The notes under the pieces: model-generated
Seen by the model: only the letters and a program-made list of their open reading frames with translations
Databases searched by the model: none
What the model was told of the DNA's origin: nothing
Position numbers and translations under genes: made by a program
Assembly (NCBI RefSeq): GCF_019634845.1
Contig: NZ_JAHCAQ010000009.1
Coordinates: forward strand, 62,001 to 126,000
Length of the DNA: 64,000 bases
Direction: 5' to 3'
From: Dokdonella sp.
Lineage (GTDB): Bacteria; Pseudomonadota; Gammaproteobacteria; Xanthomonadales; Rhodanobacteraceae
In this document: one piece after another, positions 16,121-29,641 of the stretch
How the letters are laid out: every line of letters begins with the position of its first letter
Position numbering within the stretch: the stretch's first letter is position 1

Positions 16121-16613
16121 CATTGGACGTGTGATCGATGCGAGCCCGCGCGTGGACATGACGCACCCTGCCTTGCGTGCTGTTCGACACGCACGGCGTG
16201 CGCGTGTGCGAGGCGTGATCGCGATGAGTGTGCGGCACCCGATGAGGTGTTGCGGTGGGCGCACGAGTGCCGCCGATGGCGGCGGCGACGGCACTCGCGA
16301 CGGCTCGCGAGACAGGCGGCGTTTACTTGCACGCCGCCTCCGCCGCCCCCGTCAGGGCGCCCGGCGAGTGCCATGGGCGCGCAGGCGGAATACGCGGTTG
16401 ATCGTGATGTCGGCGGCTGCGTCACGCGCAGGCATGCGGCAAAAGTGCCTGAATCATGCACTATTTGTGACGCCGTGACTTTTGCACGTATGGCGGTATA
16501 GATGGCTGGATGGCTACGCGGCATTTTCGCCCAGCCATCATGCGGTGATTCCAGGGGGCTCCGGAGGTGATTTTGGTCGCTTCAGAAAGCTGTTGTTTCG
16601 GCTCAGATATTTG
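16121..16613. other. gene-free, structure-rich region between gcvH and metJ
   Basis: About 490 bp with no convincing gene on either strand. It contains a series of perfect inverted repeats: GAGTGCCG/CGGCACTC (16265-16272 and 16289-16296), AGGCGGCGT/ACGCCGCCT (16314-16322 and 16331-16339), GCAAAAGT/ACTTTTGC (16439-16446 and 16478-16485) and GATGGCTGG/CCAGCCATC (16501-16509 and 16531-16539). The GC content drops from about 16440 onward. It may hold an untranslated RNA or an extended metJ control region. Confidence 0.45.
16500..16515 (+). promoter_or_regulatory. weak tandem MetJ-box-like sequence upstream of metJ
   Basis: Two adjacent 8-mers, AGATGGCT and GGATGGCT, match the met box AGACGTCT at 6 and 5 of 8 positions. 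MetJ binds tandem 8-bp boxes and often controls its own gene. However, this site is about 115 bp upstream of the likely -35 and also forms the left arm of an inverted repeat, so it is only a candidate. Confidence 0.3.
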
Positions 16614-16674: not shown

Positions 16675-17103
16675 ATGACTGCGACTCGTTTCATCCCCCC
16701 TTATGTCGACCATGGCACCAAGGCTGGTTCGGTGAAAAAGATCACGGTGTCGATTCCCTTTCATGTCTTGAGGCTGTTATCCGACGAACGTACTCGCCGC
16801 CAGGTCGCGAACCTTCGTCACGCCACCAACAGCGACCTGCTCTGCGAAGCGTTCCTTCATGCTTTTACTGGGCAACCACTGCCAACTGACGAGGAGCTAA
16901 GACGCGATATGGCTACGAAGAAAGCAGCTGCAAAGAAACCCGCAAAGAAGGCCGCCAAGAAAGCCGTGAAGAAGGCTGTCAAGAAGACCACGGCGAAGGC
17001 GAAGACCGCCACCGCACGCAAGACCGGCGCTGCCAAGAAGGCCGTGAAGAAGGTTGCCAAGAAGGCCGTCAAGAAGGCCGTCAAGAAGGCTGCCAAGAAG
17101 TAA
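16675..17103 (+). CDS. metJ: methionine repressor MetJ fused to a histone-H1-like lysine/alanine tail
   Basis: 142 residues; E. coli MetJ has 105. Residues 1-78 are plainly Met[10 protein letters not shown] forms the ribbon-helix-helix beta strand that reads DNA, and [22 protein letters not shown] with [10 protein letters not shown] is near-identical to the enterobacterial protein and keeps the SAM-binding core. From residue 79 the normal C-terminal helix is replaced by 64 residues of Lys-Lys-Ala repeats as in bacterial H1-like proteins. The tail begins with Met79 (codon at 16909), with GAGGAG 12 bases upstream, so a separate tail protein might also be made. Role: SAM-dependent repressor of methionine genes. 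The tail should add non-specific DNA affinity (inference). Confidence 0.92.
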
Positions 17104-25729: not shown

Positions 25730-25873
25730 GCAGCGATCGGCGCCGGCCCGGCGCCAGCCGCTTGCGCCGGCCGCAGCATGGCGCCGCGGCGTCCCCGCGC
25801 GGGCGCCGCAGCGCGGTTGCGCCTCGGTCGCCGTGGCGCAGCCGCCAAATGATCTTTTGTCATGTGGATGGAT

Positions 25874-25889
25874 AGACGTCTAAACGCCT
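25874..25889 (+). promoter_or_regulatory. tandem MetJ operator (met boxes) of the metX-metB-hom operon
   Basis: A perfect met box AGACGTCT (25874-25881) is followed directly by AAACGCCT (6 of 8). GGATGGAT, just before, matches at 4 of 8. MetJ binds two or more adjacent 8-bp boxes cooperatively. The pair ends two bases before the -35 element, so bound repressor would block RNA polymerase. The window encodes MetJ at 16675-17103. Confidence 0.82.
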
Positions 25890-25890
25890 A

Positions 25891-25919
25891 TTGACATGAC
25901 AAATGACGATCCCTACAGT
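25891..25919 (+). promoter_or_regulatory. sigma-70 promoter of the methionine operon
   Basis: TTGACA (25891-25896), 17-bp spacer, TACAGT (25914-25919; 4 of 6). The transcript would start near 25926, immediately before the riboswitch. The spacing and the adjacent MetJ boxes support the assignment. Confidence 0.75.
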
Positions 25920-25930
25920 GGCGGCCACTG

Positions 25931-26070
25931 CTCATCGAGACCGGCTGAGGGACAGGCCCAGCGAAGCCGGGGCAACCAGCGGGGCAGCAATGGTCGCAAC
26001 GGCCGTTGCCGCCCGCCACGGTGCCAACTCCCGCGGCGGCTGCGCGCAGGCGCAGCCACCGAGAGATGAG
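25931..26070 (+). ncRNA. SAM-I (S-box) riboswitch
   Basis: The conserved S-box core is present in order: P1 left strand CTCATC (25931-25936), GAGGGA (25947-25952), GGCCC (25955-25959), GGCAACC (25971-25977), GGTGCCAA (26020-26027) and P1 right strand GATGAG (26065-26070). The stretch between GGCAACC and GGTGCCAA folds as an enlarged P3 helix. Known function: S-adenosylmethionine binding stabilises P1 and turns the downstream gene off. It lies between the promoter and metX, the first enzyme committed to methionine. Confidence 0.93.
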
Positions 26071-26154
26071 CGACGACGGTACCGATGAGGGTCGGTGCGG
26101 GCGTCGCATTCGCTCCGGAACCGCGGCCACGATGGGCGCCACAGGAGCGCTGTC
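26071..26154 (+). promoter_or_regulatory. expression platform of the SAM-I riboswitch (Shine-Dalgarno sequestration)
   Basis: CGCTCC (26111-26116) can pair perfectly with GGAGCG (26144-26149), which holds the metX Shine-Dalgarno 6-11 bases before the ATG. The overlapping TCGCTC (26110-26115) can instead pair with GAGCGA (26068-26073) at the right strand of P1. With SAM bound, P1 holds that strand, the anti-SD is free and translation is off. Without SAM, the two switch partners. No T-run is present, so control at translation is inferred. Confidence 0.7.
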
Positions 26155-27183
26155 ATGACCTTCCACGCCGAATCCCGCCCCGCCGCGTCCGATCTGCCGG
26201 CTTGCGCGGCGTTCATGCCGGCATGCAGCGAGCCCGGCCCGCGTTGCGGCGAGACACTCGTCACGTTCGAACCACGCCATGCACGCGGCGCACGCGCGGT
26301 ACGCGTGCGCTGGTCGCTGCATGGGCCGGCCGGCGGTGCCCTGGTCATCGTGCAGGGCGGCATTTCGGCCGATCGCCATGTGACCGACGGTGACGCGGTG
26401 GGTGGCTGGTGGAGCGCGGTGGCAGGCGATGGCGGCGCCATCGACACGCGCCGCCAGCGCGTGCTGTCGATCGACTGGCTCGTCGCCGCCGATCTCGGCC
26501 CCGACGCGCTGGCGGTCGGCAGCGAGGACCAGGCCGACGCCATTGCCGGTTTGCTCGATGCGCTCGGCGAGCGGCGTGCCAGTGCCTACGTGGGCGCGTC
26601 CTACGGCGCGATGGTCGGGCTGGCGTTTGCGGCGCGGCATCCGCAGCGGCTCGGCCGGCTGGTCGCGATCGCGGGGGCGCATCGCGCGCATCCGCTCAGC
26701 GTGGCGATCCGCAACATCCAGCGCGAAGTGGTGCGCTTCGCCCGCGCCCACGGCGACACCGCGCGTGGGCTCGACCTCGCCCGGCGGCTGGCGATGACGA
26801 CCTACCGTGGCGAGCGTGAGTTCGCCGAGCGCTGTGACGCGGCGCCTGCCTTCGTCGACGGCCGCTACCGCTTCGCCGAGGAAGGCTGGCTGCGTGCGGC
26901 GGGCGCGCGTTTTGCGCAGCGCTTCTCGGCCGAACGCTTCCTGGCGCTGTCGGAGTCGATCGACCTGCATGCGGTGGCGCCGCGGGATGTGCGCGTGCCG
27001 ACCACGCTGATCGGCTTTTCATCCGATCGCGTGGTGCCGCTGGCCGACCTTTGCGAGCTGCAGCTCGGCCTCGGCGCCGCGGCGGCCCTGCACGTGATCG
27101 ACACGCGCTACGGCCACGACGGATTCCTCAAGGAGCCGGCCCAGGTCGGCGCCTTGCTGCGTGAGGCTCTGCTCGAACACTGA
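26155..27183 (+). CDS. metX: MetX-type homoserine O-acyltransferase
   Basis: 342 residues, alpha/beta-hydrolase fold. Activates homoserine by O-acylation, the first committed step to methionine. The nucleophile is Ser149 in YVGASYGAMVG; the catalytic Asp is in GFSSDRVVP and the His in YGHDGFLKEP. The GASYGAM elbow differs from the GGSMGGMQ of classical homoserine acetyltransferases and resembles the Xanthomonas-type MetX, for which succinyl transfer has been reported. I therefore leave acetyl versus succinyl open. Translation starts at ATG 26155 behind AGGAG, which the riboswitch platform can mask. First gene of metX-metB-hom. Confidence 0.9.
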   Translation: MTFHAESRPAASDLPACAAFMPACSEPGPRCGETLVTFEPRHARGARAVRVRWSLHGPAGGALVIVQGGISADRHVTDGDAVGGWWSAVAGDGGAIDTRRQRVLSIDWLVAADLGPDALAVGSEDQADAIAGLLDALGERRASAYVGASYGAMVGLAFAARHPQRLGRLVAIAGAHRAHPLSVAIRNIQREVVRFARAHGDTARGLDLARRLAMTTYRGEREFAERCDAAPAFVDGRYRFAEEGWLRAAGARFAQRFSAERFLALSESIDLHAVAPRDVRVPTTLIGFSSDRVVPLADLCELQLGLGAAAALHVIDTRYGHDGFLKEPAQVGALLREALLEH

Positions 27184-27386: not shown

Positions 27387-28568
27387 ATGAGCTTGACCCC
27401 TGCCACCCGGGCCGTACGCGCGGGCATCGAGAGTGATACCCAGCACGGCGCGGTGGTGCCACCGCTGCACCTGAGCACCAATTACACCTTCGCTGGCTTC
27501 GGCCGCAAGCGCGAATACGACTATTCGCGCAGCGGCAATCCCACCCGCGACCAGCTCGCCCACGCCCTCACCGATCTGGAGGGCGGCGCCGGTGGTGTGG
27601 TGACCGCCAGCGGCATGGCCGCAGTGGCACTGACGCTCGAACTGGTGCCGCCCGGTGGACGCATCGTCGCCGCGCACGATTGCTATGGCGGCACCTGGCG
27701 TCTGCTCGATGCGTGGGCCAGGAAGGGCCGGTTCAGCGTCGAATTCGTCGACCTGACCGACCCGGTGCGGCTCGCGCTCGCGTTGGCCGATGCGCCGGCG
27801 CTGGTGTGGGTCGAAACCCCGTCCAATCCGCTGCTGCGCATCACCGACATCCGGCATGTGGCGCAAGCTGCGCACGCGGCCGGCGCGCTGTGCGTGGTCG
27901 ACAACACGTTCCTGTCGCCGGCGTTGCAGCAGCCGCTGGCGCTCGGTGCCGACGTCGTCGTGCATTCGACCACCAAGTACATCAATGGCCACAGCGATGT
28001 GGTCGGCGGCGCGGTGGTCGCGCGCGACGCGGAGGTGGCGGCGCAGCTCAAGGCCTGGGCCAATTGCCTTGGCCTCACCGGCGCGCCCTTCGACAGCTAC
28101 CTCACGCTACGCGGACTGCGCACGCTGGGGCCGCGCCTGCGCGCGCACTGCGACAATGCCGCGCGCGTCGCCCACCTGCTCGCCGCCCATCCGGCGGTAT
28201 CGCGCGTGTACTGGCCGGGACTGGACAGCCACCCCGGCCACGCCCTGGCCGCGCGCCAGCAACGCGGCTTCGGTGCGATGCTGAGCTTCGAGCTCGCCGG
28301 TGGCATCGACGCGATCGCCGCCTGCCTCGACGGGTTGGAGTTCTTTTCGCTGGCCGAATCGCTCGGTGGCGTCGAGAGCCTGATCGCGCATCCGGCCACG
28401 ATGACGCATGCCTCGATGGCGGCCGATGCGCGGCGCAACGCCGGCATCAGCGATGACCTGCTGCGCCTGTCGGTCGGTATCGAGGACGGCGATGATCTGT
28501 GCCGTGATCTCGCGGCGGCGCTGCAGCGCGCCGCGGCTGCCGGCAAACGCAAACCGGTGTGTGCATGA
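27387..28568 (+). CDS. metB: cystathionine gamma-synthase (PLP enzyme of the Cys/Met family)
   Basis: 393 residues. PLP-dependent gamma-replacement enzyme joining O-acylhomoserine and cysteine to form cystathionine. Features: YDYSRSGNPTRDQLAHAL, the glycine-rich ASGMAAV, VETPSNPLLRITDI, VVDNTFLSPALQQPL and the PLP lysine Lys197 in HSTTKYINGHSD; the C-terminal SLAESLGGVESLIAHPATMTHASM is typical. MetB, MetC and O-acylhomoserine sulfhydrylase are hard to tell apart, but position after metX favours MetB. It starts 203 bp after metX and overlaps the next gene at ATGA, so the two are translationally coupled. Confidence 0.9.
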   Translation: MSLTPATRAVRAGIESDTQHGAVVPPLHLSTNYTFAGFGRKREYDYSRSGNPTRDQLAHALTDLEGGAGGVVTASGMAAVALTLELVPPGGRIVAAHDCYGGTWRLLDAWARKGRFSVEFVDLTDPVRLALALADAPALVWVETPSNPLLRITDIRHVAQAAHAAGALCVVDNTFLSPALQQPLALGADVVVHSTTKYINGHSDVVGGAVVARDAEVAAQLKAWANCLGLTGAPFDSYLTLRGLRTLGPRLRAHCDNAARVAHLLAAHPAVSRVYWPGLDSHPGHALAARQQRGFGAMLSFELAGGIDAIAACLDGLEFFSLAESLGGVESLIAHPATMTHASMAADARRNAGISDDLLRLSVGIEDGDDLCRDLAAALQRAAAAGKRKPVCA

Positions 28569-29641
28569 ACGCGCTGCCGGCCGTCAATCCGGCGCGCGCT
28601 GGCGTCGCGCTGGTAGTGCTTGGGGTCGGTGGCGTCGGCCGCGCGCTGCTCGAACTGCTTGCCACGCCGGCGGCCGGCGCGCTGCAGTTGGTGGCGATCG
28701 CCGACTCCACGCGGCAGTGGGTCAATCCGCGCGGCATCGTGCCGGCACGCGCGCGGCGCCTGCTGGCGGCGTCGGTGCAGCCGCGCGACGACGAGGCCTT
28801 GCTCGGCGCGCTGCGCGACAGCGGCCTGGTCGAACAGGTCATCGTCGACGCCACCGCATCGAGCGCCGTTGCCGCTCACCATGCCGATTGGCTCGCACGT
28901 GGTTGTCACGTGGTCAGCGCCAACAAGGCGGCGCTCGGCGAGCGACTCGAAGGCTGGCAGCGGCTGCGCCATGCCAGCCGCCTGGGGCGCCGCCGCTATG
29001 GCGATGCGGCCACGGTGGGAGCGGGCCTGCCGGTGCTGTCGACCCTGCTGCGGCTGTGCCAGTGCGGCGATCGACTGCGCGCGCTCGATGGCGTGTTCTC
29101 GGGCTCGCTGTCGTGGCTGTTCAACAATTTCGACGGCAGCCGGCCATTCTCGGCGCTGCTGCACGAGGCGCGCCAGCGCGGCTACACCGAGCCCGACCCG
29201 CGGCTCGATCTCGGTGGTGCCGATGTCGCGCGCAAGCTGCTGATCCTGGCGCGCGCGGCCGGGCATGCGATCGACGCGCACGAGGTGCACGTCGAGAGCC
29301 TCGTGCCGGGCGGACTACGCGAGGTCACTGTCGAGGCGTTTCTCGCGCGCGCCAGCGAGCTCGACGCGCCGCTGGAACAGCGCCGCGCCCAGGCCGCGCG
29401 CGAAGGCAGGCTGCTGCGCTTGCTGGCACGGCTCGACAGTCAGGGGCGCGCGAGTGTCGGGCTGGTGGCCGTCGAGCCGACGCATCCCGCGGCGCGACTG
29501 GCCGGCAACGACAACCTGTTCGCGCTGACGACGGTGCGCTATCACGACCAGCCGCTCGTGATCCAGGGTCCCGGCGCCGGTGCGGAGGTCACCGCACAAG
29601 CGCTGCTCGGGGATGTGCTCGCGTTGACCGCCGATCGGTGA
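28565..29641 (+). CDS. hom: monofunctional homoserine dehydrogenase (ThrA/MetL C-terminal type)
   Basis: 358 residues. Reduces aspartate semialdehyde to homoserine with NAD(P)H. The N-terminal Rossmann segment VVLGVGGVGRALLELL is followed by HVVSANKAALG and the catalytic region GVFSGSLSWLFNNFDGSRPFS, RGYTEPDPRLDLGGADVARKLLILAR. The block resembles the dehydrogenase half of the bifunctional ThrA/MetL enzymes but lacks the aspartokinase half and any ACT domain. It starts inside the metB stop (ATGA), so it is the third gene of the SAM-controlled operon and probably supplies homoserine specifically for methionine. Confidence 0.9.
   Translation: MNALPAVNPARAGVALVVLGVGGVGRALLELLATPAAGALQLVAIADSTRQWVNPRGIVPARARRLLAASVQPRDDEALLGALRDSGLVEQVIVDATASSAVAAHHADWLARGCHVVSANKAALGERLEGWQRLRHASRLGRRRYGDAATVGAGLPVLSTLLRLCQCGDRLRALDGVFSGSLSWLFNNFDGSRPFSALLHEARQRGYTEPDPRLDLGGADVARKLLILARAAGHAIDAHEVHVESLVPGGLREVTVEAFLARASELDAPLEQRRAQAAREGRLLRLLARLDSQGRASVGLVAVEPTHPAARLAGNDNLFALTTVRYHDQPLVIQGPGAGAEVTAQALLGDVLALTADR

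Follow-up and report, generated by a model that had tools for sequence, protein, structure and literature searches.

Does a single methionine operon stand under two unrelated sensors of SAM, one a protein that acts on DNA and the other an RNA in the leader of the same transcript? The question is raised by the metX-metB-hom locus of Dokdonella sp. and was addressed in a 64,000-nucleotide stretch of contig NZ_JAHCAQ010000009.1 (positions 62,001 to 126,000), referred to below as the window, and in related genomes. The MetJ repressor and the SAM-I riboswitch both repress at high SAM, and the stacking of a MetJ operator and a SAM-I riboswitch on one promoter, proposed in the first-pass annotation of this DNA, proves to be common to all 76 sampled genomes of the Rhodanobacteraceae, with the cognate metJ about 9 kb upstream of the operon in the window itself.

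Layout of the metX promoter region

The first-pass annotation had described a perfect met box with a second box beside it, a TTGACA-17-TACAGT promoter, a complete SAM-I riboswitch and metX, metB and hom downstream. Each of these elements was recovered at the coordinates originally assigned or by an independent model, the riboswitch by the Rfam covariance model and the three genes by profile matches over a curated cut-off which, for hom, is that of a Pfam family as its NCBIfam matches fall below theirs (Table 1). A MetJ operator is predicted where a met promoter has two or more 8-bp boxes in tandem that resemble AGACGTCT. The window has this arrangement, and its two stronger boxes are identical to a doubled AGACGTCT at 14 of 16 positions. 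A gap of one base separates them from the TTGACA of the only sigma-70-like site between 25700 and 26300 (mean in shuffles, 0.0). The gene on the far side, encoding release factor 3, is divergently transcribed so that the metX promoter lies within a short divergent intergenic region. The SAM-I aptamer begins 9 nt past the -10 element and is therefore probably located near the 5′-end of the RNA. A ten-base inverted repeat, TTTGTCATGT / ACATGACAAA (25856-25865 / 25894-25903), that flanks the met boxes and overlaps the -35 element was also spotted by eye; it is not evident in any of the three further genomes from this genus.

Table 1. Features of the metJ and metX regions, with positions in the window
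Feature	Position	Strand	Evidence
Candidate autoregulatory met boxes, AGATGGCT-GGATGGCT	16500..16515	none	11/16, p 0.025; 175 nt before metJ start
metJ, MetJ domain (residues 1-77) plus 65-residue Lys/Ala-rich tail	16675..17103	+	NF003622, 135.2 bits (cut-off 110)
Tandem met boxes, predicted MetJ operator	25866..25889	none	consensus match, family conservation, 8-bp phase
Weak third met box, GGATGGAT	25866-25873		4/8 of met-box consensus
Met box, AGACGTCT	25874-25881		8/8 of met-box consensus
Met box, AAACGCCT	25882-25889		6/8 of met-box consensus
Sigma-70-like promoter, TTGACA-17-TACAGT	25891..25919	+	TTGACA 25891-25896, TACAGT 25914-25919; 10/12
SAM-I (S-box) riboswitch aptamer	25929..26072	+	RF00162, 64.3 bits
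Predicted expression platform	26111..26149	+	anti-SD CGCTCC 26111-26116 against GGAGCG 26144-26149, spanning SD AGGAG
metX, homoserine O-succinyltransferase type	26155..27183	+	NF006449, 353.1 bits (cut-off 296)
metB, cystathionine gamma-synthase	27387..28568	+	TIGR02080, 577 bits (cut-off 504.55)
hom, homoserine dehydrogenase	28559..29641	+	PF00742, 152.7 bits (cut-off 22.9)

Conservation of the met boxes in Rhodanobacteraceae

Taken alone, the window provides only a modest excess of met-box matches over chance. Scanned for the 16-mer with up to three mismatches, it has one matching place, found on both strands, and shuffled windows have a mean of 0.21 matches, with two or more in 8 of 100. 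The same three-mismatch scan of the complete genome shows no excess over the control (4 forward matches versus 5) and was, for this reason, not taken as evidence for a regulon. With two mismatches, 25 genomes together gave 96 forward matches versus 15 for the control, these being summed counts in which overlapping boxes are recounted; at least one control match occurs in 10 of the 25, and in one genome (G291) control matches outnumber the real ones. The case for the met boxes depends on their conservation in all 76 genomes and on their 8-bp periodicity and not on single-window statistics.

The sample for this comparison comprised 299 genomes of the order, including 76 genomes from 22 genera of the Rhodanobacteraceae (family f1 in our numbering). 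MetJ is encoded in 96 of the 299, 76 of which are Rhodanobacteraceae, and none of the 203 MetJ-less genomes belongs to that family; SAM-I is likewise present in 76 of 76. Within the 100 bases that precede SAM-I, the best 16-mer matches the doubled AGACGTCT at 13 to 16 of 16 positions in every Rhodanobacteraceae genome, and in 300 dinucleotide shuffles per locus a locus's own score was never reached (76/76), the largest shuffle score of any locus being 13, the score of 11 of the 76 loci. Boxes that match at six or more of eight positions are spaced by 8 bp in 112 pairs and by 16 bp in 38, with any other spacing occurring at most five times. Three or more in-phase boxes, at five or more of eight positions, are present in 68 loci and two in the remaining eight, including the window, whose operator is thus among the weaker ones of the family. 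A TTGAC follows the boxes in 76 of 76, with the best 16-mer ending one base before TTGA in 55 and within nine bases of it in 75. Maintenance of in-phase boxes near the -35 element over 22 genera suggests selection.

Some met-box-like sites elsewhere could be considered leads rather than regulon members. In the genome of the window, a site with three mismatches is located directly before cysJ, encoding the sulfite reductase flavoprotein (L358, C15:27344), and a Dyella genome has a met-box-like site in the same position (L317, G236), both cysJ identifications resting on reads that end at the locus edge and on scores below the cut-off. A two-mismatch site also lies between cysG, encoding siroheme synthase, and a LysR gene of the CysB type (L163, C15:32895). 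Other such sites precede unrelated genes, for example purH and a glutamine amidotransferase gene.

A MetJ with a lysine- and alanine-rich tail

The protein that would bind these boxes is encoded in the window and is readily recognized as MetJ, with a score of 129.2 bits against PF01340 (cut-off 25) and, within its first 77 residues, 53 identities over the 73 positions aligned with the E. coli Met repressor (1cma). The mean column identity of the domain in 15 proteins is 86%. The C-terminal part of the 104-residue E. coli MetJ is absent, the match stopping at residue 87 with clear identity ending near residue 77. This part may be dispensable, as the MetJ proteins of family f9 likewise end early. 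The metJ gene often has boxes of its own, at p ≤ 0.05 in 49 of 69 Rhodanobacteraceae loci (4 of 73 loci were unparsed and 3 of the 76 genomes not included).

In place of the missing part, the window MetJ is extended by a lysine- and alanine-rich, histone-H1-like tail (16906-17103). The open frames are long, at 137 to 389 aa, in all 76 Rhodanobacteraceae, compared with 80 to 88 aa in family f12 and, for the most part, close to 100 aa in family f9. In 18 fully read proteins, the tail has 41 to 310 residues, with 31 to 46% lysine and 29 to 44% alanine. A methionine is positioned within three residues of the junction of domain and tail in 68 of 69 loci, with 9 of 80 loci left out of the tail parsing. 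The tail perhaps originated in an old gene fusion, or the junction methionine may be an internal start. In the open-licence texts available, no description was found of a MetJ with a histone H1-like tail, and the matches there to 'lysine-rich' appear unrelated.

The SAM-I leader

The match to RF00162 is the only one in the window at gathering scores, and extends untruncated over model positions 1 to 108 of 108 (gathering score 44.4, E 1.2e-12). The leader has no terminator, as judged by a scan in which the sole terminator-like site lies 5′ of the promoter. The first-pass suggestion that SAM-bound RNA silences any remaining transcript would then more probably refer to a block of translation. 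Given the lack of a terminator and the presence in many relatives of a hairpin that sequesters the Shine-Dalgarno (SD) sequence, the RNA layer probably exerts translational control, as in the Xanthomonas met operon. In the window this helix has 6 bp and is weak (p 0.145). Compared with shuffled arms, and with metX start codons picked by script, it is significant at p ≤ 0.05 in 41 of 76 leaders, at p ≤ 0.005 in 21, and does not reach p ≤ 0.05 in 35. By inspection, the letters of the two arms change jointly between genera, as in CTCTCCGG/CCGGAGAG, GGTTCTCC/GGAGAACC and GTCTCG/CGAGAC.

Constrained folding of ten leaders is partly consistent with such a switch. When P1 was forced, the predicted opening of the SD decreased by more than 0.1 in five, from 0.45 to 0.16 in the window and from 0.60 to 0.03 in L104, and barely changed in the five others, in which the SD was mostly closed beforehand. 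Blocking P1 clearly opened the SD in L104 alone. As in Xanthomonas, release of the SD by tRNA may also complicate the RNA layer here. A GATG sequence is located between the arms of the SD hairpin, 17 to 24 nt 5′ of the metX start, in 49 of the 76 leaders (mean in shuffles, 7.5) and at 26131-26134 in the window. The idea that it contacts a tRNA anticodon was set aside, as the text available from the Xanthomonas study reports the anticodon to be unimportant (PMC7270179).

Different predicted operators before the same riboswitch in sister families

Outside the Rhodanobacteraceae, MetJ and SAM-I are seldom found together. Only 1 of the 20 other MetJ-encoding genomes of the order has SAM-I (G113, family f9), and there met boxes are missing from both SAM-I promoters (scores 7 and 8). 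SAM-I is present in 140 of the 203 MetJ-less genomes (38/60, 50/80 and 52/63). Among 369 genomes sampled across the class, 10 have SAM-I, 5 have MetJ and 2 have both, these two being Rhodanobacteraceae and including the genome of the window; the SAM-I counts come from batches of more than 40 genomes, in which weak matches can be lost.

The order-wide look at metX upstream regions proposed in the first-pass annotation thus has a divided outcome: the met boxes extend throughout the sampled Rhodanobacteraceae but not beyond. There are 146 SAM-I matches outside the family (43, 51 and 52), and in the 59 with upstream sequence read (39 + 20; the remaining 87 were left out), met boxes are absent, with scores of 7 to 10 and none of the 39 that were shuffle-tested reaching p ≤ 0.01. 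Instead, a 24-bp ATC...GAT palindrome with 8 to 12 of 12 pairs is present in 28 of the 29 SAM-I promoters examined in families f2 to f6 (f2, which we infer to be the Xanthomonadaceae, 16/16; f3, 3/3; f4, 6/6; f5, 2/3; f6, 1/1). In 26 of the 28, the palindrome ends on the first T of the -35 TTGA; in the two f5 sites it is offset by two bases. Three genomes of family f5 (G004, G016 and G034) have two SAM-I riboswitches each. The palindrome is not an order-wide feature, given its occurrence at 1 of 17 sites in f8, 0 of 8 in f10, 0 of 1 in f11 and 0 of 4 in f9, and most of the f8 and f10 SAM-I sites examined have neither met boxes nor palindrome.

In a pattern search, the same palindrome was found directly 5′ of a gene for an ArsR-type HTH plus methyltransferase-domain protein, samR, in 6 of 7 genomes of families f2 to f5, with metH next in three f2 loci; one site each also lies before metK (f5) and before metF (f3), with all three enzymes identified by eye. 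Because the palindrome also precedes samR, it is probably the SamR operator. As a family, the Rhodanobacteraceae do not have this 24-bp palindrome, the mark of a SamR operator, before metX; at seven or more of 12 pairs it occurs there in 1 of 76 genomes and in 28 of 7800 shuffles. A relative of samR, 61 to 65% identical, is nevertheless present in all 38 Rhodanobacteraceae tested, which rules out samR loss as the cause of MetJ use. An ATC...GAT palindrome (7 to 10 of 12 pairs, without a shuffle control) also lies just 5′ of this relative at 15 of 15 loci, so that samR, and probably also its own site, is retained.

Different operators before an unchanged riboswitch can be read as an exchange, in either direction. 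More broadly, the locus appears to represent one form of a wider design, an operator at the -35 element followed by a SAM-I leader, with MetJ as the protein in the Rhodanobacteraceae and probably SamR as its counterpart in some sister families. We would put at even chances the fuller proposal that SAM control in two layers has a protein half that can be swapped as a module, with a SamR operator in f2 to f6 and a MetJ operator in the Rhodanobacteraceae, where samR and its palindrome were kept, and that the exchange coincided with the acquisition by MetJ of its histone-H1-like tail, the junction methionine possibly giving rise to a tail-only product.

A model with two SAM-dependent layers, and its alternatives

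With both elements and their cognate genes present, appropriately positioned and conserved, we consider it highly probable that two SAM-dependent off-switches are arranged in series on metX-metB-hom. SAM-loaded MetJ dimers would occupy the tandem boxes beside the -35 element and so exclude RNA polymerase. In transcripts that escape, binding of SAM to the SAM-I aptamer would stabilize P1, freeing the anti-SD to pair with the metX Shine-Dalgarno sequence and turn translation off. Both layers would be turned off as SAM increases and, if they act independently of one another, output would equal promoter activity times translation, with fold changes multiplied and logarithmic sensitivities summed. 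The two affinities in the cell would then set whether the result is a steeper curve or two thresholds, the outcomes named in the first-pass annotation.

The two layers need not contribute as proposed. It is unlikely, in our estimation, that the leader instead works through Rho-dependent termination or mRNA decay, with transcript then being reduced by both layers. Rho-dependent termination is left open for Xanthomonas in the available text of PMC7270179, and an SD helix of significance is missing from the 35 leaders noted above; the same text describes the Xanthomonas effect as primarily translational, and the sequestering hairpin is significant in the other 41. We regard as quite unlikely an arrangement in which the riboswitch alone regulates in practice and the MetJ operator, weak or constitutively occupied, mainly sets a basal level. 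The operator in the window is short and the promoter part of the Xanthomonas system is blind to methionine in the portion of PMC6230763 available, but the in-phase boxes appear to have been kept near the -35 element by selection over many genera and metJ often has boxes of its own, as expected of an autoregulated repressor.

Highly improbable is a third reading, that the tailed MetJ is mainly a nucleoid-associated, histone-H1-like DNA binder that has lost SAM-dependent met repression. It would account for the length and lysine content of the tails, but the MetJ domain is conserved and exceeds the NCBIfam equivalog cut-off, and the operators predicted for the tailed protein are in phase and placed before met genes. 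With two SAM-dependent layers as the preferred reading, the Rhodanobacteraceae provide a natural case, common to the sampled family, in which one metabolite is probably read twice on a single operon, by a DNA-bound protein and an RNA. Such stacking allows range widening, response sharpening and noise buffering to be compared. The sister families, with the same riboswitch and either another repressor site (f2 to f6) or neither operator (most f8 and f10 sites), offer a ready comparison of regulator replacement with reinforcement, and of transcriptional with RNA-based control.

Comparison with known systems

No description of MetJ and SAM-I on one operon was found in the open-licence texts available. 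The closest RNA counterpart is in Xanthomonas campestris, where a met operon is also headed by SAM-I, with no intrinsic terminator and with SD sequestration in the parts of PMC7270179 and PMC6230763 available. That riboswitch binds SAM with a KD of about 2 uM and acts primarily on translation; its SD is sequestered even when SAM is absent, and is released by uncharged initiator tRNA (PMC7270179, in part). The available text of Tang 2018 (PMC6230763) reports that metJ is missing from Xcc 8004 and that 1 mM methionine had no effect on the X. campestris met promoter, whereas here metJ is present and met boxes abut the -35 element. In the corresponding part of Tang 2020 (PMC7270179), the MetJ/MetR system is said to appear conserved, Xanthomonas included.

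For the protein layer, the counterparts are the MetJ regulons of Enterobacteriales and other gammaproteobacteria, which likewise have MetJ and met boxes at met promoters in the sections of PMC4239095 available, but the present case differs in that MetJ has a tail and its target operon also carries SAM-I. A table in that paper includes four Xanthomonadales genomes without a listed MetJ regulon. The f2 to f6 palindrome matches the description there of the SamR regulator and motif (Leyn 2014, PMC4239095, as available), and the same source lists operators of the Xanthomonadales SamR regulon for metB, metX2, hom and metH genes; the Rhodanobacteraceae differ in that samR is kept, yet the metX promoter has met boxes. 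The accessible text of PMC4239095 also names one organism, Oceanicaulis alexandrii, which, with a different riboswitch class and a different protein, SAM-II and SahR at hom-metXC, likewise has a protein and a riboswitch stacked on a methionine operon.
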